Of a stretch of 64,000 nucleotides of DNA, positions 2,028-13,346 are shown in pieces; the stretch's first letter is position 1; each line of letters begins with the position of its first letter. A model generated the notes under the pieces. That model saw nothing but the letters and a program-made list of their open reading frames with translations, searched no databases and was not told the DNA's origin. The stretch is from Chitinophagales bacterium (GTDB lineage Bacteria; Bacteroidota; Bacteroidia; Chitinophagales; UBA10324), in the NCBI GenBank assembly GCA_025057275.1, contig JANWXQ010000041.1, forward strand, positions 1 to 64,000, in the 5' to 3' direction. The position numbers and the translations under genes were made by a program.

Positions 2028-4427
2028 ATGCATTTTCGGCTGGTTTCTCTGCGCTTGCTGATTTGTCAGGCATCTGTTGCATTGGGCTTGCATCATGCAG
2101 TTGCAGCCGACAACAGCCGAAGCGACAGCGTAGACATTCTGCACACCAGCATTTTTCTGGATGTTACCGATTATGCGGGCAAGACCCTGAAAGGCCATTG
2201 CACCCTTAGGTTTCAGGCCAAAGTGCCGTTGCAGCAACTGGACCTGGATCTCTTGCGCCTGAAGGTGGATTCCGTTAAACAGCAGGGCGTATTGCTGTCT
2301 TTTAACTACGCCGATTCGCTCACGCTGCACATCAGTCTGCTGGCGCCGTTAAACGTTGGCGACACGGCTTCGGTAACGGTGTATTACGGAGGCAAACCCA
2401 AACAGGACAGCGGAGGCTGGGGTGGTTGGTACTGGAGCGGCGACCTGGCCTTTAACATTGGCGTAGCCCTAAATGAAGTACCCCACACCTTTGGCCGAAG
2501 CTGGTTTCCCTGCTTTGACAATTTTGTGGAGCGCAGCACCTATTCGCTTGCGGTGCGTACGGCCGGTAACAAAATGGCCCTGTGCGGAGGTACGCTGCAA
2601 AAGGTGGAAACCGCACCCGACGGCACCACCACCTGGCATTATCAGCTGGATGAGGCCATTCCCTCCTACCTGATCAGCGTGGCCGTACACCAGTTTGCTC
2701 CCGTTTACGATACCTATGTGAGTGTTACGGGCGACACCATTCCCATTGTGCTGGGCGCCGTAGCAACCGACACTACCAAACTGAAGAATTCCTTCAAAAA
2801 CCTGAAGGCCACCCTGCAGGCATATGAGCAGCTGTGGGGTCCCTACCGCTGGCCGCGGGTAGGCTACGTGCTGACAACCGTGGGCGCCATGGAACATGTC
2901 ACCAACATTGCCTATCCGGCTTTTCTGGTGAACGGGCAAACCACCTACGAACACATCATGGCGCATGAATTGTCGCACCACTGGTTCGGCAACCTGACCA
3001 CCTGCCGCACCGATGCCGACATGTGGCTGAACGAAGGGTGGGCCGTATTCAATGAATGGATATTTTTTGAACAGCTATACGGCCGCCAGCGATACGATTC
3101 GGAGATGAAAAACACGCTGGAGCGTTGCGTGCGCTATTTGCATACGCCGCTCAGCGACGGTGCAGCATTTGCCCTGAACCAGGTGCCGCCGTCGCATACC
3201 TATGGCGAGACCGTCTATCTGAAGGGGGCCCTGGTGGCCCACACCTTGCGCGGCTACCTGGGCGATTCATTATTTTTTTCCTGCATGCGTCAGTTTATGG
3301 ACAGTTATGCCTTTCTGGACGTCAGCAGTGAAGACCTGGAGGCCTTTCTGACGACCTGTTCCGGCAAGGATTTGTCATCGTTTTTTGCCAACTGGGTTTA
3401 TGCGCCGGGTTGGACGGCCTTTTGGGTTGATTCGGTTTCCGTTCAGCCCGTATCGCCGCCGGGTTATGAGGTGGTGGTGTTTGTCAAGCAACGCACCCGA
3501 CTGGCCCCGGCGCGCTACCATCAGGTGCCGCTGACTTTGACCTTTTATTTAGCAGATGGCTCGCAGCAACGCCAAACCGTCCTGGCACAGGGAGAATGCA
3601 TGCAGTTTCCCTTCTTCTTCACCGCTGCTCCGAAACTGGTCACCCTGGACGAAGACGACTGGATTGCCGATGCCGTGACGGCAGAGCAAAAGCTGATCGG
3701 CAATGCCGGCGTGCACAATTTGGTATTAGCTAAAATGAACGTCACCGTAACCAACTGGACTGACACAGCGTTGCTACGTGTGGAGCATGTGTATGCTGCA
3801 CCCGATCCGTTTCGCCATCCGCCCAAGGGATTGTATCTGTCGCGCGAGCGTTTCTGGCGGGTGGACGGCCTGTGGGACAGCAACTTTCAGGCTTCAGCCA
3901 CCATTTCCTACCAGGGTGCAGCCATGAACAATGGCTACCTGGATGTGGACCTGATTTCTCAACCCGAAGACAGTCTGGTGGTCGTGTACCGCACTTCAGC
4001 TGCTGCCGACTGGCAGATAGAACCCAACGTAACCCAAAACACGCTTGGCTCGCTCACCGACAAGCGGGGCAATTTTATTATCCACCAGTTGCGCCGGGGG
4101 CAGTATGCATTGGCCATACGCCATGCTGCCCGTGCCGATAGTGTAACGGCGTTATCCGATTCCTGTCAGCTGGTGACTGCACCTTCGCTTTCCGATGCTC
4201 GTTCCGTTTTGCTTTTCCCCAATCCAGCAAATGACCATTTCAGGTTGGTTGTCCCCCACAACGGATGGTTGGACATTACAGATGCTTTGGGGCGAATTGT
4301 ATTCCGGCAACCGGTTGCTGCAGGAACGACCTATATCTCTTGTGCCGGATGGCCTGCGGCATTGTATGCGGGGCGGCTTCGTCTGGAGTCGGGGCAGCAG
4401 CTTATTTTGCGCCTCGTGGTAAACTAA
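2028..4427 (+). CDS. Secreted M1-family aminopeptidase with T9SS sorting domain
   Basis: Zinc aminopeptidase of the gluzincin M1 family, predicted to be exported and released or anchored at the cell surface; it would remove N-terminal residues from peptides. The 799-residue precursor starts with a signal peptide (about residues 1-26, ending near VAA). The zinc site is HELSH at 313-317 with the third ligand Glu336 (HEXXH-X18-E). The upstream substrate motif reads GAMEH instead of the usual GAMEN. The C-terminus carries a type A sorting domain, starting around FPNPANDHF. The ATG at 2028 is preferred over an in-frame TTG at 2016, which would overlap the panB stop. The following dehydrogenase gene starts only 9 bases downstream. 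Confidence 0.93.
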   Translation: MHFRLVSLRLLICQASVALGLHHAVAADNSRSDSVDILHTSIFLDVTDYAGKTLKGHCTLRFQAKVPLQQLDLDLLRLKVDSVKQQGVLLSFNYADSLTLHISLLAPLNVGDTASVTVYYGGKPKQDSGGWGGWYWSGDLAFNIGVALNEVPHTFGRSWFPCFDNFVERSTYSLAVRTAGNKMALCGGTLQKVETAPDGTTTWHYQLDEAIPSYLISVAVHQFAPVYDTYVSVTGDTIPIVLGAVATDTTKLKNSFKNLKATLQAYEQLWGPYRWPRVGYVLTTVGAMEHVTNIAYPAFLVNGQTTYEHIMAHELSHHWFGNLTTCRTDADMWLNEGWAVFNEWIFFEQLYGRQRYDSEMKNTLERCVRYLHTPLSDGAAFALNQVPPSHTYGETVYLKGALVAHTLRGYLGDSLFFSCMRQFMDSYAFLDVSSEDLEAFLTTCSGKDLSSFFANWVYAPGWTAFWVDSVSVQPVSPPGYEVVVFVKQRTRLAPARYHQVPLTLTFYLADGSQQRQTVLAQGECMQFPFFFTAAPKLVTLDEDDWIADAVTAEQKLIGNAGVHNLVLAKMNVTVTNWTDTALLRVEHVYAAPDPFRHPPKGLYLSRERFWRVDGLWDSNFQASATISYQGAAMNNGYLDVDLISQPEDSLVVVYRTSAAADWQIEPNVTQNTLGSLTDKRGNFIIHQLRRGQYALAIRHAARADSVTALSDSCQLVTAPSLSDARSVLLFPNPANDHFRLVVPHNGWLDITDALGRIVFRQPVAAGTTYISCAGWPAALYAGRLRLESGQQLILRLVVN

Positions 4428-4436
4428 TTCTTCTAC

Positions 4437-5327
4437 ATGAGAATAATTGCAGTAATCGGAGCCGGCACTATGGGGAATGGCATTGCCCATGTGTTTGCGC
4501 TCAAAGGCTATGAAGTGCGGTTGATTGACATCCACCGCGAACAACTGGATCGGGCCTTAGCAACAATTTCCAGAAATCTGGATCGTCAGGTTGAAAAAAA
4601 ACTGATAACGGCAAAAGAAAAAGAAGCGGCATTGTCCCGCATTCAAACGGCAACCGAATTAACCGATGGAGTCCGAAATGCCGACGTGGTCATAGAAGCA
4701 GCAACCGAAAACCTGGAGGTCAAGCTGCAGTTGTTCCGGCAGCTGGATCAGGCAGCACCTGCTTCCTGCCTGCTGGCCACCAATACGTCGTCCATTTCCA
4801 TAACACAGATTGCGGCCGTTACTCAACGTCCGGACCGGGTTATCGGCATGCATTTTATGAATCCGGTGCCGGTTATGAAACTGGTGGAAGTGATCAGAGG
4901 CTATGCCACATCCGAAACCACCACAAAAACGATTATGGAGCTTTCGCGTCAGCTGGATAAAGTGCCTGTGGAAGTCAATGATTATCCCGGCTTTGTAGCC
5001 AACCGGATTCTGATGCCTATGATCAATGAAGCCATTTATGCCTTGTATGAAGGCGTTGCCGGTGTGGAAGAAATCGACACGGTGATGAAGCTGGGCACGG
5101 CGCATCCCATGGGTCCGCTGGAGCTGGCTGATTTCATCGGGCTCGACGTCTGCTTGGCCATTCTGCGGGTCATGCACGAAGGTTTTGGAAACCCCAAGTA
5201 TGCGCCCTGCCCGCTGCTGGTGAACATGGTTACTGCCGGACATCTGGGCAAGAAAAGCGGTCAGGGATTTTACAATTACGAAACATTGGCAAAAGGTCTC
5301 TTTGTTGCCGATCGGTTCAGAAAATAG
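4437..5327 (+). CDS. 3-hydroxybutyryl-CoA (3-hydroxyacyl-CoA) dehydrogenase
   Basis: NAD-dependent dehydrogenase that interconverts 3-hydroxyacyl-CoA and 3-ketoacyl-CoA, in butyrate/PHB or beta-oxidation metabolism. The 296 residues are normal for the stand-alone PaaH/Hbd type. The N-terminal Rossmann motif is GAGTMG at residues 8-13. The catalytic His is His139 in GMHFMNPVP, and NTSS precedes it at 116-119. The C-terminal helical domain has DYPGFVANR and AHPMGPLELAD, typical of the family. The start ATG lies 9 bases after the M1 peptidase stop, so it probably shares that transcript although the functions look unrelated. The stop codon overlaps the promoter of the following tRNA. Confidence 0.93.
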   Translation: MRIIAVIGAGTMGNGIAHVFALKGYEVRLIDIHREQLDRALATISRNLDRQVEKKLITAKEKEAALSRIQTATELTDGVRNADVVIEAATENLEVKLQLFRQLDQAAPASCLLATNTSSISITQIAAVTQRPDRVIGMHFMNPVPVMKLVEVIRGYATSETTTKTIMELSRQLDKVPVEVNDYPGFVANRILMPMINEAIYALYEGVAGVEEIDTVMKLGTAHPMGPLELADFIGLDVCLAILRVMHEGFGNPKYAPCPLLVNMVTAGHLGKKSGQGFYNYETLAKGLFVADRFRK

Positions 5328-5332
5328 TTTTG
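5301..5332 (+). promoter_or_regulatory. Promoter of the tRNA-Gly gene
   Basis: A -33 TTTG (5301-5304), a 20-base spacer and a -7 TAGTTTTG (5325-5332) match the Bacteroidota housekeeping promoter. The predicted transcription start is only a few bases before the mature tRNA 5' end. The -7 box contains the stop codon of the preceding dehydrogenase gene. Confidence 0.75.
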
Positions 5333-5340
5333 TTCGCTGT

Positions 5341-5412
5341 GCGGGAATAGCTCAGGGGTAGAGCATCAGTTTCCCAAACTGAGGGTCGCGGGTTCGATTC
5401 CCGTTTCCCGCT
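5341..5412 (+). tRNA. tRNA-Gly (anticodon CCC)
   Basis: Full cloverleaf. The acceptor stem pairs GCGGGAA with TTCCCGC. The anticodon stem TCAGT/ACTGA holds the loop TTCCCAA, giving anticodon CCC, which reads GGG. The T arm contains GGTTCGATTCC. The discriminator is T, followed by CC and then another C, so the terminal CCA is not encoded and must be added after transcription. Its own promoter lies directly upstream. Confidence 0.95.
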
Positions 5413-5499
5413 CCCTGTAACTGATGAACAGGAATCATTGTCCTGTGGAGGTGTTCCGGGTAAGGCATAATTTAGCCAACAGTACAACTTAGTTTCTGC

Positions 5500-7689
5500 A
5501 TGCGAAAGGTGTTTCCGCTCTTGCTGTTTTTACTGGCCGGTTCGGCTCAAGGCGCTATCGTAACCGGTATCAAAACCGAATACCGTCACGGTCAGGTGTT
5601 CGTTACCTGGAAAGTCATTCCGAACTATGAACATAAGTTCTACTACGTGTACCGGTACGAAAAGCCCATCACCTCCCAAAACATTGACAGCGCCGAATAC
5701 CTGGGCCGCAGCGACAAGGAATTCTCTTTTAATTACTTCCTCAATCTGGGTATAACCGGATCCAATACCAACAAAATTTATTACTGTGTCATCAATAACG
5801 ATCCCTGGGTGGTTTTGGACGCCACCGACGGGCTGTATGTGAACACCTGCAATAAAGACAAGTCGTATTACTATGCTGTGACCTGCGACAGTACGGTACA
5901 GGGAGGTCCCAAGGAAAACAAGCGTATCGTCGCAGGAGTCAATGCCACGACCATGCCGGTAGCCGAAAAGGTAGCCCAAATACGAGCCTATCTGCAGGTT
6001 TCCGGCATACCGCTGCTCAGCAACCCCAGCCTCACCTACGACGGCTATGCCTTGTTTCAGGGCAAGGTAAAAACTCCCTTCGTGCCGTACATGGGCAATG
6101 AGGGTTGCCTGATTCATAACTGGGGTTTGATCAGGGACACCGACAACGGACCAACGCCTAATGCAGCCACGTTTTTCTTTTACGGAGGCGGTGGCAATGC
6201 CTACGACAATGCCAACGGCACCAACGTGGCCAACATGTGGAAAGTTTCTATGGAAGATGTGCTGCCCAACTTCAACTGGGATCCGCTGGCCGGAGAAAAC
6301 ACCAAATGGCTGGGCTACAACGAAAACCTGAACATTTACGCCCTGAACCAGACCAGCCCGCCGCCCACGGCCGGGGTGGACCGCATGTACACCGTCTGGC
6401 GCGTGAAATGGACTTACGATTGGCTGGTCCGGACTTTTCCCAACGACATTGACAGCACGCGCATAGCTGCCATCGGCAGTTCCAATGGCTGCACCGGTGC
6501 CATGGTGCTGGGTTATTTGTATCCGGGTAAGGTTTCCGCTGTGGATGTTACCAATGCCAAAATCAACCCGAAATACCTGACCGATGATAACCCCACCTGC
6601 AAGTGGAACATCAACGGAACTTCGCGCAACCGGGCAGAAATTTTTCTGGGTACCCTGCAGACCAACCTGATGAGCGATGTGCCTCGCCAGGTGGGCACCG
6701 GTAACTATCCGCTTTACGATTTTTCAAATATCAATACGCTGGTAGCTGACCAAAAGTATGCGGCTCTTCCGCCAGTGTACATGACTTCCGGAAAAGCCGA
6801 CAACGTCACCTGTTGGGAAGAAAAAATTGAGTTTTACAATACCATCAACAAAAACCGGGTCGGGGGAGCCTACTTCTGGGATTTGCGTTCGCATAAGGGC
6901 GGCATCAAGTACATCAAAGACCGTCCCCTGGAACTGATGCTGCGCTTCCGCACCAATCAGTCGTTCCCGGCCTTTTCCCGCTGTTCCCACAACAACAATC
7001 CGGGCGATACGGACAATCCCCAATCGCCTTTTTACGACGGCGATACGTTGGGTGCCATCAACGGCATTATGGACTGGGTGGATTCCACCATAGCCGAAAC
7101 CGATACCAGTTGGCAAACCAAGATTTTTACCACCAAGTTTGAACTTAACGACGGCACATTCTTTCCGCCAACGCTGCCCGATTACGTTACGGTGGACATT
7201 ACCCCGCGCCGGCTGCAGCAATTCAAAAACATTGCAGCAGGCACGCAGCTCTGTATGGAAAACTGGCAGAACGGCGTGCTGATTCAGTCACGAACCGTGA
7301 AATGGAATCCGTCGCCCGACGGGCAGGGCATGATGACCTTCCGAAAAGCCCGGATCAGCCCGGAAGGCAATCTGATCAAAATTTATGTCTGCGACCCCAA
7401 ACGGGCAGCGTTACCGGGCCCGGCGCTTGTGCCTCAGCCCCAGCTGAGTCTGTATCCCAATCCGGCCACCGACTTTACCGTAGCGGAGATTTCCCTGCAG
7501 CAGGCCGCTCGGGTTCTGGTTACCGTTGCGGACCTGAGCGGAAAAGTGCTGCTTAGCGAATATCACCATCTGGAGGCCGGGGAGGAGCAGCAGGTAACCA
7601 TTCCTGTTGCCCGACTGCCGCAGGGCCTGTATCTGGTGACCCTTTCTGACGGCCATCAGACGTTGACCTGCCGGTTGGCAAAACAATAG
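5500..7689 (+). CDS. Secreted alpha/beta-hydrolase-like protein with T9SS sorting domain, unknown substrate
   Basis: A 729-residue exported protein that I do not recognise as a named enzyme. It has a signal peptide (about residues 1-18, LAGSAQG) and a beta-rich N-terminal region containing several Cys. A hydrolase core follows, with the nucleophile elbow GSSNG at 326-330 (Ser328), a likely acid in SGKAD (Asp434) and a likely His in RSHKGG (His465). The order and spacing suit an esterase- or peptidase-type catalytic triad. The C-terminus is a type A sorting domain (LSLYPNPATDF to the end). A secreted esterase acting on an extracellular polymer is the best guess; the triad is inferred by eye. 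It stands alone between tRNA-Gly and another T9SS protein. Confidence 0.75.
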   Translation: MRKVFPLLLFLLAGSAQGAIVTGIKTEYRHGQVFVTWKVIPNYEHKFYYVYRYEKPITSQNIDSAEYLGRSDKEFSFNYFLNLGITGSNTNKIYYCVINNDPWVVLDATDGLYVNTCNKDKSYYYAVTCDSTVQGGPKENKRIVAGVNATTMPVAEKVAQIRAYLQVSGIPLLSNPSLTYDGYALFQGKVKTPFVPYMGNEGCLIHNWGLIRDTDNGPTPNAATFFFYGGGGNAYDNANGTNVANMWKVSMEDVLPNFNWDPLAGENTKWLGYNENLNIYALNQTSPPPTAGVDRMYTVWRVKWTYDWLVRTFPNDIDSTRIAAIGSSNGCTGAMVLGYLYPGKVSAVDVTNAKINPKYLTDDNPTCKWNINGTSRNRAEIFLGTLQTNLMSDVPRQVGTGNYPLYDFSNINTLVADQKYAALPPVYMTSGKADNVTCWEEKIEFYNTINKNRVGGAYFWDLRSHKGGIKYIKDRPLELMLRFRTNQSFPAFSRCSHNNNPGDTDNPQSPFYDGDTLGAINGIMDWVDSTIAETDTSWQTKIFTTKFELNDGTFFPPTLPDYVTVDITPRRLQQFKNIAAGTQLCMENWQNGVLIQSRTVKWNPSPDGQGMMTFRKARISPEGNLIKIYVCDPKRAALPGPALVPQPQLSLYPNPATDFTVAEISLQQAARVLVTVADLSGKVLLSEYHHLEAGEEQQVTIPVARLPQGLYLVTLSDGHQTLTCRLAKQ

Positions 7690-7741: not shown

Positions 7742-8419
7742 ATGAAACGTCTCTTTACCCTGATGATCTTGGCAGGATGGTGGGGAACCAGCATGGCTCA
7801 GGTGCTGTCGCTGAATCCTTCCAGTTTTAATCTGCAGGTAGATGTTTCCTCTTATGCTGATGCTCATGCAGTTATGTGGAATAATTCTAATGTGGACCGC
7901 ACGATTACCTGGGTGCGTGTCGTCCATCAACAGCCAAATGGCTGGTATTCCATGGTTTGCGACGATAACAACTGCTATTCTCCTTCCACCAGCACCATGA
8001 ATGTGGCTTTGGCTGCCGGAGCTCAGGGCATCCTGAAGCTAAGCATTTTCCCCAACGATGTTGCCGGTTATGGGGAATACACCGTTTATGCTTACGATGC
8101 CAACGACAGTGCCAACGTAAATGCGTCCATGTATATTCAGGTGAATGCCTTGCAGGTAGGCGTTCCGCCGGTGCGCAATGAAGTGATCGCCATTTTCCCT
8201 AACCCCGTGCGCGATATGCTTTACATTAACCTGCTCAACAAGAGCGTTACGTCCATAGAATTGTACAGCATTATCGGGCAGAAACTGCGCACCCTACAGG
8301 TGCAGCCCGGTCATCCCACCATAGCCGTGCCGGTGGCCGAGCTGAAAAAAGGCATGTATTTCCTCAGAGTGTACAGCAACCAGCGGGAATTGGTCACCCG
8401 CATGTTCAGCAAAGAATAG
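7742..8419 (+). CDS. Small secreted protein with T9SS sorting domain
   Basis: A 225-residue exported protein of unknown function. A signal peptide (about residues 1-20, ending TSMAQ) is followed by one beta-sandwich-like domain of about 120 residues. That domain has a close cysteine pair (VCDDNNCY) and resembles the immunoglobulin-like modules of Bacteroidota surface proteins. The type A sorting domain begins near IFPNPVRDM and ends with the usual LKKGMYFLRV type of strand. The ATG at 7742 is chosen because the promoter at 7696-7726 lies downstream of the earlier in-frame start at 7697. A strong terminator follows the stop. Confidence 0.8.
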   Translation: MKRLFTLMILAGWWGTSMAQVLSLNPSSFNLQVDVSSYADAHAVMWNNSNVDRTITWVRVVHQQPNGWYSMVCDDNNCYSPSTSTMNVALAAGAQGILKLSIFPNDVAGYGEYTVYAYDANDSANVNASMYIQVNALQVGVPPVRNEVIAIFPNPVRDMLYINLLNKSVTSIELYSIIGQKLRTLQVQPGHPTIAVPVAELKKGMYFLRVYSNQRELVTRMFSKE

Positions 8420-8437: not shown

Positions 8438-8466
8438 AAACGGCCGCTTCAAGCGGCTGTTTTTTA
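8438..8466 (+). terminator. Intrinsic terminator between convergent genes
   Basis: A ten-pair hairpin (stem AAACGGCCGC with GCGGCTGTTT, loop TTCAA) runs into a row of T residues on the plus strand. It ends transcription of the small T9SS gene and overlaps the stop codon of the convergent TlpA gene. In the minus direction only a short T run follows, so it is weaker there. Confidence 0.75.
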
Positions 8467-9003
8467 TTGCTGTTGTTCGCGAAGCTCTTTGATGCGTTTC
8501 TCCAGCTCAAATTCATCGCCTTCCACATAGCCGGCATGCTGGTAGACAATTTTTCCTCCGGGGCCGGCCATAACGGTAAACGGCACATTTTGAAAGCCCA
8601 GCTGCCGCTTCAACTCTCCGTTAGGATCCAGCAACACGCGGTATGGCCAGCGCGAGCCCTGAACGGTAGGTTTCACCTTGCTGACGTTTCGGGCATCATC
8701 TACCGAAACGGCTATTAATTCCATCTGATACTTTTCCTGCCATTCGCCATACACTTTGGCGATGTTGGTCAGCTCTTTTTTACACGGAACGCACCACGTG
8801 GCCCAGAAATTCAAAACCACAATTTTGCCGTCGCTGGCCAGTTGGCTGACGTTTACTGCATTGCCCTGCAGATCTTTCAGGGTAACCGGTGGAAGCATCT
8901 TATCCTGAGCCATCAGGGAAGGAACCCATACAGACGAAAGCATCCATAAAAACAATAATTTCTGCCTGATCCATGGTAAGCTTACCTGCATGAATGAGAG
9001 CAT
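8464..9003 (-). CDS. TlpA/ResA-family thiol-disulfide oxidoreductase
   Basis: Thioredoxin-fold protein of 179 residues that would reduce disulfides outside the cytoplasm. An N-terminal hydrophobic segment (about residues 14-32, ending LMAQ) looks like a cleavable signal peptide. The active site is WCVPC (Cys71 and Cys74), and the cis-proline loop appears as NVPFTV. The ATG at 9003 lies 22 bases after a good promoter element on the same strand. It is divergent from the DUF6029 barrel gene, with the two promoters back to back. As that gene is followed by a CPNC-containing Omp28 lipoprotein, the three probably act on related envelope thiols; this is inference. Confidence 0.9.
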   Translation of the reverse strand: MLSFMQVSLPWIRQKLLFLWMLSSVWVPSLMAQDKMLPPVTLKDLQGNAVNVSQLASDGKIVVLNFWATWCVPCKKELTNIAKVYGEWQEKYQMELIAVSVDDARNVSKVKPTVQGSRWPYRVLLDPNGELKRQLGFQNVPFTVMAGPGGKIVYQHAGYVEGDEFELEKRIKELREQQQ

Positions 9004-9025
9004 AGGTAATGGTTTGATGAGAAAT

Positions 9026-9033
9026 CAAAGGTA
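9026..9033 (-). promoter_or_regulatory. -7 promoter element for the TlpA-family gene
   Basis: Read on the minus strand this is TACCTTTG, a full match to TAnnTTTG, 22 bases before the TlpA start. No clear -33 element was found. Confidence 0.55.
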
Positions 9034-9071
9034 AAGCCAAAATCCTGCCAGAAATCGCCGGAGGCCGCGGC

Positions 9072-9079
9072 TATATTTG
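9072..9079 (+). promoter_or_regulatory. -7 promoter element for the DUF6029 gene
   Basis: TATATTTG is a full match to TAnnTTTG. It ends only 4 bases before the ATG at 9084, so the transcript would be leaderless or nearly so unless a later start is used. Confidence 0.5.
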
Positions 9080-9083
9080 CCTG

Positions 9084-10676
9084 ATGGACTGTCGCCGGCT
9101 TTACGCATACGAACTTCTGTTGTGGCTGTTATGTCTTTCTTCAAGCGCCGTAGCCCAGTCGTCGTTGTCGGGGGACTTGCAAACGGATCTGAAGGTGTTT
9201 ATGCGCGACAGTGCCATTGGGGCCATAAACACGCCGCAATACGATTATCTGTTATCGGGACTGGATGGCTGGCTTACGGTCAACTACGTCACCACTGGTT
9301 TTGATGCCCGCCTGCGGCTGGATGTGTTCAACAATTCCAATCTGCAGGATCCCAATCAGGCCTTTACGGGTGCCGGCATCGGCTATTTTCATTTGTCCAA
9401 ACAGATAGAAAAGCTGCAGGTTACCGGCGGCTATTTCTACGAGCAGTTCGGTGGTGGTATGATTTATCGTGCCTACGAAGACCGGGGGCTCGGCCTGGAT
9501 TACGCCACCTTTGGTCTTAATCTGAAGTATAAGCTTACCGAAAACTGGCAGGTTAAGGGCATTGCCGGACAGCAGAAAAACCGGTTCAGCCGCTATGCGC
9601 CTGTGATCAAAGGACTGAACACTGAGGCAACCCTTTCGCTGGGGTCATCGGCGCAGGTGGTTCCCGGAGCAGCCTTTCTGAACCGGACGCTCGACAAAGC
9701 TACCATGGATATAGTGGCCGGCCTAATCAACAGCTACGAACCGGAAGACCGCTTCGTACCCCGATACAACGTATATGCTTTTTCCGGATATTACACTTTG
9801 TACGCCGGTCCGGTAACCTGGTATGTTGAAGGGGCAGCCAAAACGCCTGAAGCCATTTTGGGCGCGGAGGGCATTCTGGTCAACAAACCGGGCAGCATAG
9901 GCTATACCTCGCTGAACTACGTACGCGAGGGACTGGGGCTTACCCTGCAGTTCAAGAGAACCGAAAACTTTGAGCTGCGCATTTCGCCGCTGGAAACCTT
10001 GCTCAATGGCGTGCTCAATTTTCTTCCCCCTATGGCACGCCAGAATTCGCTTCGTCTGCCGGCGCGTTACAGCCCAGCCACACAGTTTCTGGGCGAACAG
10101 GCCTTTCAGGCCGATCTTACCTATTCGCCCGCAGAACCCTGGGTTATAGATGTCAATTTTTCTCATATCAACGATCTGGACGGCAACAAGCTCTGGCGCG
10201 AAGTGTATGCCCAGGCTGATGTCACGGCTTCTGAAACCGACCATTTGTTGTTCGGAGGTCAATACATCTTTTACAATCAGCAGGTTTATCTGTCCGAACC
10301 GTTACCCGACCAGACAGCCCTTACCGCTTTTGTGGAATATACCCGGCGGTTGTCGCAGATGCATTCCCTGCGTACGGAAGTACAATACATGCACACCGAA
10401 CAGGATTTTGGCTCCTTCCTGTTTGTACTGGCCGAATACAACATGGCTCCCCGCTGGTCTTTCAGTATTTCAGACATGTATAACATTCAACCCAATCCCG
10501 AAAAAACGACCACCAGAGAGCACTACTACAACTTTTTTGTTTCCTACACCCAGGGACCTACCCGTTTTGCTTTGGCCTTTGCCCGTCAGGTGGCTGGCAT
10601 TAACTGTTCGGGGGGCGTTTGCCGCTATGAACCGGCTTTCAACGGGGTGAAATGCTCCATCACCACTTCGTTTTAA
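9084..10676 (+). CDS. DUF6029 family outer-membrane beta-barrel protein
   Basis: A 530-residue protein that I recognise as the Bacteroidota family DUF6029, of unknown function. A signal peptide (about residues 1-25, SSSAVAQ) is followed by alternating aromatic and polar strands throughout, for example FELRISPLETLL and HYYNFFVSYTQG. The chain ends in Phe (TTSF), as expected for an outer-membrane barrel. It starts an apparent operon with the Omp28-type lipoprotein (16-base gap) and the Rieske-like protein, and faces a TlpA thioredoxin. The ATG sits almost on its -7 box; an in-frame TTG at 9120 would leave only a short signal peptide, so I keep the ATG. Confidence 0.82.
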   Translation: MDCRRLYAYELLLWLLCLSSSAVAQSSLSGDLQTDLKVFMRDSAIGAINTPQYDYLLSGLDGWLTVNYVTTGFDARLRLDVFNNSNLQDPNQAFTGAGIGYFHLSKQIEKLQVTGGYFYEQFGGGMIYRAYEDRGLGLDYATFGLNLKYKLTENWQVKGIAGQQKNRFSRYAPVIKGLNTEATLSLGSSAQVVPGAAFLNRTLDKATMDIVAGLINSYEPEDRFVPRYNVYAFSGYYTLYAGPVTWYVEGAAKTPEAILGAEGILVNKPGSIGYTSLNYVREGLGLTLQFKRTENFELRISPLETLLNGVLNFLPPMARQNSLRLPARYSPATQFLGEQAFQADLTYSPAEPWVIDVNFSHINDLDGNKLWREVYAQADVTASETDHLLFGGQYIFYNQQVYLSEPLPDQTALTAFVEYTRRLSQMHSLRTEVQYMHTEQDFGSFLFVLAEYNMAPRWSFSISDMYNIQPNPEKTTTREHYYNFFVSYTQGPTRFALAFARQVAGINCSGGVCRYEPAFNGVKCSITTSF

Positions 10677-10692
10677 CCTAATTTCGGGCTGC

Positions 10693-11538
10693 ATGCGCTA
10701 CGCCGTTGTTTTCCTGGTTGCGCTGTTAACGGCCTGCAGCGAAATCGGCCCGTACATTCAGCTGGACGATAATGCCACGCCAGCCGATACGGTAGCGGTT
10801 GATACCACGCAAAGCCGCGTGGTTCTTCTGGAAATTTTTACCGGAGCCAGCTGCCCCAACTGTCCCAAAGGCCGGCAGATTGCCGATAACCTTATGGGCA
10901 CCTATGCAGGCCGGCTTCAGGTGGTGGAAATCCACCAGGGCCCTTTGGCGCATCCTGCTCAGCAGGGAGATCCTGACCTGCGCACCACGGATGGCGACGA
11001 ACTGGCTGCCTACCTGGGGCCTCCTCCGTACTGGCCCGTTGGCGCTGTGGACCGCCGCGCTTACCAAACCAGTCCCGGTGTGTGGCAAACGTTGGTCGAT
11101 CGGAATCTGTGGTCTTCACTGGTGGCTGCTGCCGTGGACAGCCCATTGAAGGTAGCCCTGGGTGCCCAAGCATCGTTTGATGAGGCATCCAGAAAACTGA
11201 AAGTCGATGTGGGCGTGCGCTTTCTGCGTTCCGTAGAGGAAGCGCTGCATTTGACCGTAATGCTGGTAGAAGACAGCATTGTGGCAGCCCAGTTAGATGG
11301 CGTAACCCTCATTACCGACTACGTGCATCACGATGTGTTGCGCGACATATTAACCCCCTTTTCGGGCACGCCGGTTACCGGAAACCGACAGGCCGGAACC
11401 TCCTGGTACTGGTCTGTGGCAGATTACGTGCTGCCACCCGACTGGAATGCCCGTCATTGCCGGGTCGTGGTATTGGTGGCTCGCTCCGGCGGCAGTTACG
11501 AAGTTTTACAATCGCACCAGATCAAGCTGCTGCCATGA
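10693..11538 (+). CDS. Omp28-related lipoprotein with thioredoxin-like CPNC motif
   Basis: A 281-residue outer-membrane lipoprotein of the Omp28 family. The lipobox is LLTAC, with the modified Cys at residue 15. The N-terminal half is a thioredoxin-like domain whose redox motif is CPNC (Cys54 and Cys57), with a cis-proline-type loop YWPVGAVDR. The C-terminal half is a beta domain typical of the family. Omp28 of Porphyromonas gingivalis is a surface adhesin/receptor, but the CxxC suggests a redox role. It follows DUF6029 and overlaps the next gene by the four bases ATGA, so the three are very probably one translationally coupled operon. Confidence 0.85.
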   Translation: MRYAVVFLVALLTACSEIGPYIQLDDNATPADTVAVDTTQSRVVLLEIFTGASCPNCPKGRQIADNLMGTYAGRLQVVEIHQGPLAHPAQQGDPDLRTTDGDELAAYLGPPPYWPVGAVDRRAYQTSPGVWQTLVDRNLWSSLVAAAVDSPLKVALGAQASFDEASRKLKVDVGVRFLRSVEEALHLTVMLVEDSIVAAQLDGVTLITDYVHHDVLRDILTPFSGTPVTGNRQAGTSWYWSVADYVLPPDWNARHCRVVVLVARSGGSYEVLQSHQIKLLP

Positions 11539-11924
11539 GCCGTCTGTTTTTTGTTTTGATTCTTGTTTTGCTCATTACGGTGCACTGGCAGTGCGAACAG
11601 GTGGACTCGCAACAGCGGGTAGATTTTTACATTGATTTAACCGACCCGCAGTATCAGGATTTATACCTTACGGGCGGCTACATCTATGTCAACAGCATCA
11701 TGGTGTTCAAGGGTTTGGATCAGAACTACTATGCCTTATCGCAATACTGCACCAATGATGTATGCATGGTGCAGTATCAGGTGGCGTTTAACGAGGTGGT
11801 TTGCACCTGCGATCAGTCGCATTTTGATGTATACGGCAATCCGACCTTTGGTCCGGCGGTTTATCCACTGTACCGCTATGCCACCAGTCTGTACGGCTCC
11901 ATGCTGCGCATCTACACGCCCTGA
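11535..11924 (+). CDS. Small Rieske-fold-like envelope protein lacking the iron-sulfur histidines
   Basis: A 129-residue exported protein. An N-terminal hydrophobic segment (residues 4-17) is followed by Cys20, but the context HWQC is a poor lipobox. The second half lines up with the two Rieske boxes. CTNDVC (72-77) matches C-T-H-x-x-C, and CTCDQSHFD (90-98) matches C-P-C-H-G-S-x-F-D, followed by FGPAVYPLYRY, which matches the usual GPA-PL-Y tail. Both histidine ligands are replaced (Asn74, Asp93) while all four cysteines remain, so a 2Fe-2S cluster of normal type is unlikely. The Cys may form disulfides instead. The start overlaps the Omp28 stop codon (ATGA). The Rieske relation is my reading of the motif pattern. 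Confidence 0.7.
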   Translation: MSRLFFVLILVLLITVHWQCEQVDSQQRVDFYIDLTDPQYQDLYLTGGYIYVNSIMVFKGLDQNYYALSQYCTNDVCMVQYQVAFNEVVCTCDQSHFDVYGNPTFGPAVYPLYRYATSLYGSMLRIYTP

Positions 11925-11945: not shown

Positions 11946-13346
11946 ATGGTTTTTTTCATGATATGTTTTAAACGACGTCTCTGTGCTTCCTTGGTGATAT
12001 GTGCTGCCGCTCAGCTCTTTATTGGCCAGGGCGTGCCGGCAGTTGTTGCCCAGGACACCACCCGGCTGCTGGCTGGACCCATGCTGGGTTATGTAGAGCA
12101 CCGCGAAGCCCTCATCTGGCTGCTAGTTACTGACAAGGTAAAGGAAGTCAGCATCCGCTATTACCCGAAAGACCAGGCCCAGCAGGCCCAACAGGTTCGC
12201 CAAACGGTTACTGCCGATGGACCGTACCGGCCGGTAAAAGTGGTGTTGCCGTTTCTCCGAATGGGAACTACCTATGTCTATGAAGTGTTGCTGGACGGAC
12301 AGCGACAGGTTTTTCCCTATCCCCTCCAATTTCAGACCAAAGCCATCTGGGAATTTCGCACCGACCCTCCGGCATTTTCTTTCTTGGCCGGATCGTGCAT
12401 GTACATTAACGAACAGGAGTCTGACCGGCCCGGCAAACCCTATGGCCGCGACGTACGCATTCTGGACAGTATGGCCCGTGAACAGGCTCAACTAATGCTC
12501 TGGCTGGGGGATAACATTTACCTGCGGGAAGGCGACTGGACGTCGCGAAGCGGATTTATCTATCGCTACATGCACACCCGCAAAACACGCGCCCTTCAGG
12601 CGCTGCTGGCCGCCCAGCCCAACCTCTATGTATGGGATGATCACGACTTCGGCCCCAACGATGCCAACAGCTCTTTTGTACTGAAAGAAACTGCTCTGGA
12701 TGTGTTCCGCGAGTTCACCGGCAATCCCACCTATGGCGAATCGTCCAATCCCGGAACCTACACGCGATACGTTTTTTCCGATTGCGAATTTTTCCTGCTG
12801 GATGGCCGCTCCTATCGTTCGGCGGAAGACCTGGACTCGCTGGCTGCGGACAAGTACTATCTGGGCCCCCAGCAAATGCAATGGCTGAAAAACGGTTTAA
12901 TGTATTCCAAAGCCAGTTTCAAATTCATTGTTAGCGGCACGCAGGTACTGGATCCGTATAACCGCTTTGAAAGCGTAAGGCATTACAAGCGAGAATTTGA
13001 TGAGTTAATGGATTTTATTGTCCGCCACCGCATTAAAGGCGTAATTTTTCTCACGGGCGACCGGCATTATTCCGACATCATACGCTGGACGCCTGCCGGA
13101 GGTTATCCGTTGTATGACATTACCAGTTCAGCCCTGACCTCAGGAAGTGCGCAAAGCGCCAAAAGCCGACCCGACAGTGAGCATCCCTACCGCGTCGTGC
13201 CCGAAGGGGTAATTGATCAGAATTATATTAAAGTGACCGTGACCGGAGTGCGAAAAGACCGCGTGGCAACGGTTCAATGCAAAACGGTAGATGGGCGTTT
13301 GGCCTGGCAGTACGTGATCCGGCAAACCGAGCTGGACTGGAAATAG
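11946..13346 (+). CDS. PhoD-like alkaline phosphatase family protein
   Basis: A 466-residue exported metallophosphoesterase of the PhoD family, expected to hydrolyse phosphodiesters or monoesters in the periplasm or outside. It has a signal peptide (about residues 1-35, VVAQ) and a fibronectin-like N-terminal domain typical of PhoD. The metal-site motifs follow in order: GSCMY (149-153), WLGDNIY (186-192, Asp189 and Asn190), WDDHDFGPNDA (from 230) and FLTGDRHYS (Asp372, His374). An alternative start is the ATG at 11961. The gene lies 21 bases after the Rieske-like gene and converges with the methyltransferase, with only 7 bases between stops. Confidence 0.9.
   Translation: MVFFMICFKRRLCASLVICAAAQLFIGQGVPAVVAQDTTRLLAGPMLGYVEHREALIWLLVTDKVKEVSIRYYPKDQAQQAQQVRQTVTADGPYRPVKVVLPFLRMGTTYVYEVLLDGQRQVFPYPLQFQTKAIWEFRTDPPAFSFLAGSCMYINEQESDRPGKPYGRDVRILDSMAREQAQLMLWLGDNIYLREGDWTSRSGFIYRYMHTRKTRALQALLAAQPNLYVWDDHDFGPNDANSSFVLKETALDVFREFTGNPTYGESSNPGTYTRYVFSDCEFFLLDGRSYRSAEDLDSLAADKYYLGPQQMQWLKNGLMYSKASFKFIVSGTQVLDPYNRFESVRHYKREFDELMDFIVRHRIKGVIFLTGDRHYSDIIRWTPAGGYPLYDITSSALTSGSAQSAKSRPDSEHPYRVVPEGVIDQNYIKVTVTGVRKDRVATVQCKTVDGRLAWQYVIRQTELDWK

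Follow-up and report, generated by a model that had tools for sequence, protein, structure and literature searches.

The locus described here lies in positions 1 to 64,000 of the forward strand of contig JANWXQ010000041.1 from a Chitinophagales bacterium (GenBank assembly GCA_025057275.1); this whole stretch of 64,000 nucleotides is called the window. A sequence-only reading had proposed that a periplasmic thioredoxin (TlpA), a DUF6029 outer-membrane barrel, an Omp28 lipoprotein and a Rieske-like protein encoded there belong together, and all four genes were found where it had placed them. The start of the Rieske-like gene overlaps the stop of the Omp28 gene (ATGA). Beyond the 3' end of tlpA, on the other strand, lies a further gene for an immunoglobulin (Ig)-like protein exported by the type IX secretion system (T9SS), which we call T9N. 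The nearest named relatives of the window are metagenome-assembled genomes of Chitinophagales and Saprospiraceae, so the organism is probably an uncultured member of this order (class Bacteroidia). The features are listed in Table 1.

Table 1. Features of the locus, in positions of the window; values after Pfam accessions are E-values unless given in bits
Feature	Position	Strand	Remarks
tlpA, TlpA/ResA-like periplasmic thioredoxin	8464-9003	-	WCVPC (C71/C74); signal peptide, without lipobox; AhpC-TSA PF00578 1.8e-21
DUF6029 outer-membrane beta-barrel	9084-10676	+	PF19494 7.3e-112; 24-strand model; single-copy gene in the genome
DUF6029 cysteine pair C508-x4-C513 (CSGGVC)	10605-10622	+	hairpin 505-516, last extracellular loop in the model; 119/119 loci
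Omp28-family lipoprotein, thioredoxin-like domain	10693-11538	+	PF11551 2.9e-19; lipobox C15, CPNC (C54/C57), P115
Degenerate Rieske-like exported protein	11535-11924	+	PF00355 21.0 bits; C72/C77/C90/C92 present, both His ligands gone
T9N, T9SS-exported Ig-like protein	7742-8419	+	CDDNNC: C73 (7958-7960), C78 (7973-7975); PF18962 9.2e-13
-7-like box TACCTTTG, Bacteroidota type, for tlpA	9026-9033	-	about 23 bases ahead of the tlpA start
-7-like box TATATTTG	9072-9079	+	ends 4 bases ahead of the DUF6029 ATG; doubtful promoter

The DUF6029 protein matched PF19494 over its full length (375 bits against a cut-off of 27; profile positions 10-538 of 538). In its AlphaFold model (predicted local distance difference test score, pLDDT, 94.4), about 24 strands are connected by short turns alternating with long loops, and the C-terminal aromatic residue, of outer-membrane type, is an invariant F530. 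When 61 DUF6029 proteins were aligned, few residues proved invariant; C508, G510, G511, C513 and R514 were among them. The survey was based on 119 DUF6029 loci, namely 87 neighbourhoods from the class of the window, which were scanned in all six frames using profiles made from the module, and 32 from outside the class. A CxxG[VI]C pair was present in all 119 loci, directly in 118 and in the second piece of a split gene in the other (L308, CVGGVC). In 84 of the 119 barrels, the pair provides the only two cysteines in the last 480 residues. According to the model, the cysteines flank the GG turn of a small hairpin (residues 505-509 and 512-516) between strands 23 and 24. Outer-membrane barrels have both termini in the periplasm as standard; if this is assumed for the 24-strand model, the loop that joins strands 23 and 24 faces the outside and is the last extracellular one, and the C508/C513 pair is thus placed in it. 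This invariant pair, which the sequence-only reading had overlooked, is the strongest feature of the module.

Foldseek returned only generic large barrels for DUF6029 (ushers, MOMP, LptD and MtrB) with template modelling (TM) scores of at most about 0.5. Thus, the protein has no specific fold homologue among these matches. DUF6029-like barrels of the same Pfam family have been suggested to be polysaccharide exporters from their similarity to Wzi (PMC9603273). If the window protein were such an exporter, its thioredoxin neighbours would be incidental. The generic Foldseek result is compatible with that suggestion, but the annotated neighbours of the module include thiol proteins and no recurrent polysaccharide genes, and the thioredoxin-fold neighbours and the cysteine pair recur throughout the phylum. 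We regard a polysaccharide-export role as very improbable. No paper linking DUF6029 to thiol chemistry was found in the literature search.

The Omp28 protein of the window scored 70 bits against 34.9 for PF11551, and its lipobox cysteine and CPNC motif agree with assignment to lipoproteins of this family. Since it fell below the cut-off of NCBIfam NF033782 (115 vs 150 bits), it belongs, as a diverged member, to the broader Pfam family and not to this narrower one. In an alignment of 59 module Omp28 proteins, the sole invariant residues were C15, C54, C57, P115 and Q200; P115 stands where a thioredoxin would have its cis-proline and is a candidate for it. The concern that Omp28 homologues might mostly lack the CxxC motif was not borne out, as the motif was present in 59 of 59 aligned proteins and in 73 of 73 class loci. 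The best Foldseek match of the model (pLDDT 94.1) was HBP35 (5y1a; E 1.9e-11, TM score 0.68). The lipoprotein may be located at the cell surface. Omp28 domains occur five times in the genome of the window; other Omp28 proteins there also carry CxxC, and two of them, of about 700 amino acids, have T9SS-like C-termini. No paper pairing Omp28 with a selenoprotein was found in the literature search. As for TlpA, matches to AhpC-TSA and Redoxin together with WCVPC in a thioredoxin fold with a signal peptide identify the window protein as TlpA/ResA-like, at a score below the NCBIfam ResA/TlpA cut-offs. WCxPC was conserved in 102 of 103 module TlpA proteins.

The gene order around DUF6029 was compared among the 87 class loci. 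A TlpA gene was located at most 1.2 kb from DUF6029 in 74 loci, and in 73 the next gene downstream, on the same strand as DUF6029, was an Omp28 gene. TlpA was divergent from DUF6029 in 45 loci, which is the arrangement of the window's order, and stood ahead of it in a co-directional operon in 29 loci of other families, with gaps mostly of 0-40 bases. Because both arrangements occur, the linkage between TlpA and DUF6029 outlived an inversion. Chitinophagales loci often continue after the module with pheT, a coiled-coil open reading frame, zapA and rny; in other orders (L150-L156, L162-L168), a barrel of about 207 amino acids (OMP_b-brl_2) and a UbiX-like flavoprotein often follow Omp28.

DUF6029 was detected in 207 of 295 genomes of the class (120 of 156 genera), including 111 of 150 genomes of the order. 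Over the 295 genomes, DUF6029 and Omp28 were both present in 204 and both missing in 76, with 3 genomes having DUF6029 only and 12 having Omp28 only (phi 0.88). In each of the families f2, f35 and f36, some near-complete genomes had both genes and others had neither; thus, a single split between clades does not account for the pattern. The T9SS marker SprA_N was found in 284 of the 295 genomes, far more than the number with DUF6029, and one genome (G032) contains the module with no SprA hit. T9SS presence was therefore rejected as the sole cause of the pattern.

A search of the phylum detected diverged DUF6029 relatives with E-values up to 3e-5, and the 32 outside-class loci were taken from near and far relatives. 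All 32 retain the C-x4-C pair (CTSGIC, CTNGVC, CIGGVC and others); TlpA adjoins DUF6029 in 27, and Omp28 with CxxC is present in most. In family f104 (L297, L298, L309-L311), no Omp28 was found at the DUF6029 locus. Instead, the position after the barrel is occupied by a protein of redoxin type whose motif is CPHC or CTHC and whose N-terminus marks it as a lipoprotein; in L298 this protein has a tandem twin with a T9SS sorting domain (PF18962 6.3e-13). As the family that fills the position is an unrelated one of thioredoxin fold, the replacement is strong evidence that this slot is for thiol chemistry.

Conserved order may also arise without shared function, and in many loci of the order the genes could have hitchhiked beside the downstream pheT, zapA and rny. 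The linkage holds, however, where pheT is missing and where TlpA is inverted, DUF6029 and Omp28 are jointly present or absent within f2, f35 and f36, and in f104 the Omp28 slot is taken by another family of thioredoxin fold. Hitchhiking can hardly be the explanation. The TlpA/DUF6029/Omp28 neighbourhood extends across the phylum, well beyond close relatives of the window, and the module is almost certainly a real, phylum-wide functional unit.

T9N lies outside the region covered by the sequence-only reading. Its sorting domain is of type A, and the TIGR04183 score (39 vs 23 bits) also identifies it as T9SS cargo. Members of the family defined by its N-terminal domain lie close to the module in 34 of the 87 class loci, and both cysteines are invariant in the 33 members aligned. 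Across the 295 genomes, counted without tree correction, DUF6029 and T9N occurred together in 188, DUF6029 alone in 19, T9N alone in 8 and neither in 80 (phi 0.79). T9N directly follows Omp28 in two loci (L257, L261), and in L281-L285 it is in the same gene run, beside TlpA or an exported Omp28. The L257 locus (genome G226) is an operon in the order TlpA, DUF6029, Omp28, T9N, a T9SS-exported Omp28 and DsbD. T9N is thus a probable partner of the module. At many other loci, the protein encoded ahead of tlpA is exported by the T9SS and has either an Omp28 domain (L156, L163, L168) or a thioredoxin/redoxin domain (L152, L166, L171).

Two further proteins were observed beside the module. In the window, a 729-amino-acid T9SS cargo with a type A sorting domain is encoded immediately upstream (5500-7689); it matches a depolymerase/esterase model weakly, and some family members have relatives of it at the equivalent position. 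In locus L256 of G032, the genome without a SprA hit, a 689-amino-acid lipoprotein (3390-5459, minus strand) comes directly after DUF6029 and consists of two fused Omp28/thioredoxin-like domains (CINC and CGYC) around a CAGGQC segment.

The conserved linkage and the invariant pair suggest an undescribed system that handles disulfides at, and perhaps across, the cell surface. Of the T9SS-linked thiol system that had been envisaged for TlpA, DUF6029 and Omp28, the conserved linkage and the CxxC motif are thus borne out; the actual exchange of disulfides, and its passage across the membrane, are inferred. With confidence a little better than even, we favour a dedicated thiol-disulfide relay from the periplasm to the cell surface, Bacteroidota-wide and probably reducing. 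This reading is based on the linkage and co-occurrence of the genes, on the invariant cysteine pairs, and on the fold and topology of the models. In such a relay, DsbD in the inner membrane would pass reducing equivalents to soluble periplasmic TlpA through its WCxPC motif, TlpA would pass them to the DUF6029 barrel, and the C-x4-C pair near the outer mouth would hand them on to the CxxC motif of the thioredoxin-fold Omp28 lipoprotein. The equivalents would be spent on proteins displayed by the T9SS, namely the Ig-like C-x4-C protein and the exported Omp28 and thioredoxin proteins. The cysteine pairs would then exchange electrons, and the equivalents would pass through or along the barrel. A bolder claim, which we put forward only tentatively, is that DUF6029 may be the first outer-membrane barrel to conduct thiol-disulfide equivalents, from periplasmic TlpA to surface lipoproteins and T9SS proteins with cysteine pairs, in most Bacteroidota.

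Several observations weigh against this relay. DUF6029 stands with neither neighbour nearby in 7 of the 87 class loci, and the co-occurrence counts over the 295 genomes ignore shared ancestry, as they are not tree-corrected. The model places C508 and C513 of the barrel outside the cell, whereas TlpA is periplasmic, and of the 87 class loci in which DsbD was sought, a single one had it linked.

A single invariant pair in a loop hairpin could also be structural. TlpA and Omp28 might then make or repair the C508-C513 disulfide for the folding or opening of DUF6029, and the job of the barrel would be a non-redox transport. Such maturation has a precedent in the barrel LptD, which relies on disulfide rearrangement for its assembly. 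However, it leaves unexplained why T9SS-exported proteins with CxxC and C-x4-C share the locus and the phyletic pattern, and why the linked enzyme is of a reductase type (TlpA, and once DsbD). We consider barrel maturation unlikely.

With regard to the direction of the relay, the TlpA/ResA-type WCxPC motif and the DsbD gene that ends the L257 operon suggest reduction. The genome of the window has one DsbD and gave no VKOR hit, DsbB not having been searched for. In the reverse direction, Omp28 and the barrel would play the parts of DsbA and its partner, and surface proteins or T9SS cargo would receive their disulfides while being exported or afterwards. T9SS cargo with conserved cysteine pairs lies beside the module, the redoxin in the Omp28 slot of f104 has a C(P/T)HC motif, and HBP35 complements an Escherichia coli dsbA mutant (PMC2907840). 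The relay could therefore oxidise, which is a further point against the reducing version. Set against these are the TlpA/ResA type of the reductase, the one DsbD linkage and, with DsbB outside the search, the missing VKOR in the window's genome. An oxidising system appears quite unlikely, and the relay probably works in the reducing direction.

The sequence-only reading had also proposed back-to-back promoters for tlpA and the DUF6029 operon. Both -7-like boxes exist, and relatives carry such boxes between the divergent genes about 3-fold more often than expected (20/43 and 22/43 regions vs about 6.4). The plus-strand box is doubtful as the DUF6029 promoter, since at 4 bases before the ATG it is too near for an ordinary upstream transcription start; the proposal thus convinces in only one of its halves.

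In the small four-cysteine Rieske-like protein of that reading, the four conserved cysteines are present. The PF00355 match is barely over the cut-off (20.3 bits), and alignment with about 30 relatives showed that both histidine ligands of the two-His/two-Cys site are replaced (CTND, CTCD); thus, judged by its sequence, the protein is not a functional Rieske centre. An order-wide family of small exported Rieske proteins (L067-L096) mostly has intact CTHxGC/CPCHGS motifs and a twin-arginine translocation (Tat)-like MDRKEFL start, and the window protein also lacks this start and its twin residues. A Rieske-like gene stands beside DUF6029 in only part of the window's family (f1), where the ligands are intact in L069, L070 and L072 and both histidines are lost in the window, its sister L068 and L071. 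We therefore do not retain the protein as a general member of the module, and its candidacy as the core electron carrier was rejected for the lost histidine ligands and Tat-like residues and the partial linkage. The protein appears to be an electron carrier that was recruited and has since decayed or been repurposed, a local, lineage-specific addition. Loss of an iron-sulfur site is thus visible within the Chitinophagales Rieske family: in the window's genus the two histidine ligands and the Tat-like start disappeared together, with close relatives beside the same operon intact. The next gene downstream (11946-13346), which is PhoD-like, was rejected as part of the module because it follows only in the window's genus.

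Among known systems, the DsbD-driven reductant relays (TlpA/ResA/CcmG and Neisseria PilB) share with the proposed relay a TlpA-type WCxPC reductase and DsbD as the source. PilB of Neisseria carries DsbD-type electrons to the outer membrane; we know of no DsbD-driven relay with an outer-membrane barrel that bears a conserved cysteine pair. The MtrCAB porin-cytochrome conduits resemble the module in combining a periplasmic redox protein, a large barrel and a surface lipoprotein, but they use haem wires where the module has thiols. MtrB (6r2q_B) was among the Foldseek matches of DUF6029 with TM scores of 0.44/0.37, which is a generic similarity and no evidence of homology.

The closest solved fold to the Omp28 model, HBP35 of Porphyromonas gingivalis (5y1a; PMC2907840, PMC3120885), has a surface thioredoxin domain and is T9SS cargo, as are the Omp28 proteins with a C-terminal domain at related loci. 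HBP35 differs in being a haemin-binding cargo and not a lipoprotein, and it has not been linked to any barrel. It is exported to the surface, and its thioredoxin activity, proven in vitro, requires both active-site cysteines; its authors called the role of the domain unknown (PMC2907840). In Paraprevotella clara, the 'Omp28-related' T9SS protein 00502 recruits trypsin and leads to its autodegradation (PMC9477747). It is T9SS-exported and shares the Omp28 name with the large partners at module loci; that thiol exchange on disulfide-rich trypsin might be its mechanism is only a thought. The Phylogenize2 preprint (PMC13404670) describes surface thioredoxins in Muribaculaceae and does not mention Omp28. 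Our literature search found no paper describing a TlpA-DUF6029-Omp28 module.

Bacteroidota display thioredoxin-like proteins at the surface, and to stay reduced these would need a source of reductant beyond the outer membrane, where NADPH is lacking. The barrel, present in single copy and with its cysteine pair invariant, makes up a concrete candidate for the supply line together with a periplasmic reductase and a thioredoxin-like lipoprotein. If the barrel does conduct thiol-disulfide equivalents, surface thioredoxins such as HBP35 would obtain through DUF6029 the reductant supply that has been missing for them. A testable function is offered for both DUF6029 and the Omp28 family. Thiol-disulfide relays as such are already known; transfer across the barrel, if true, would make the module a categorically new kind of conduit.

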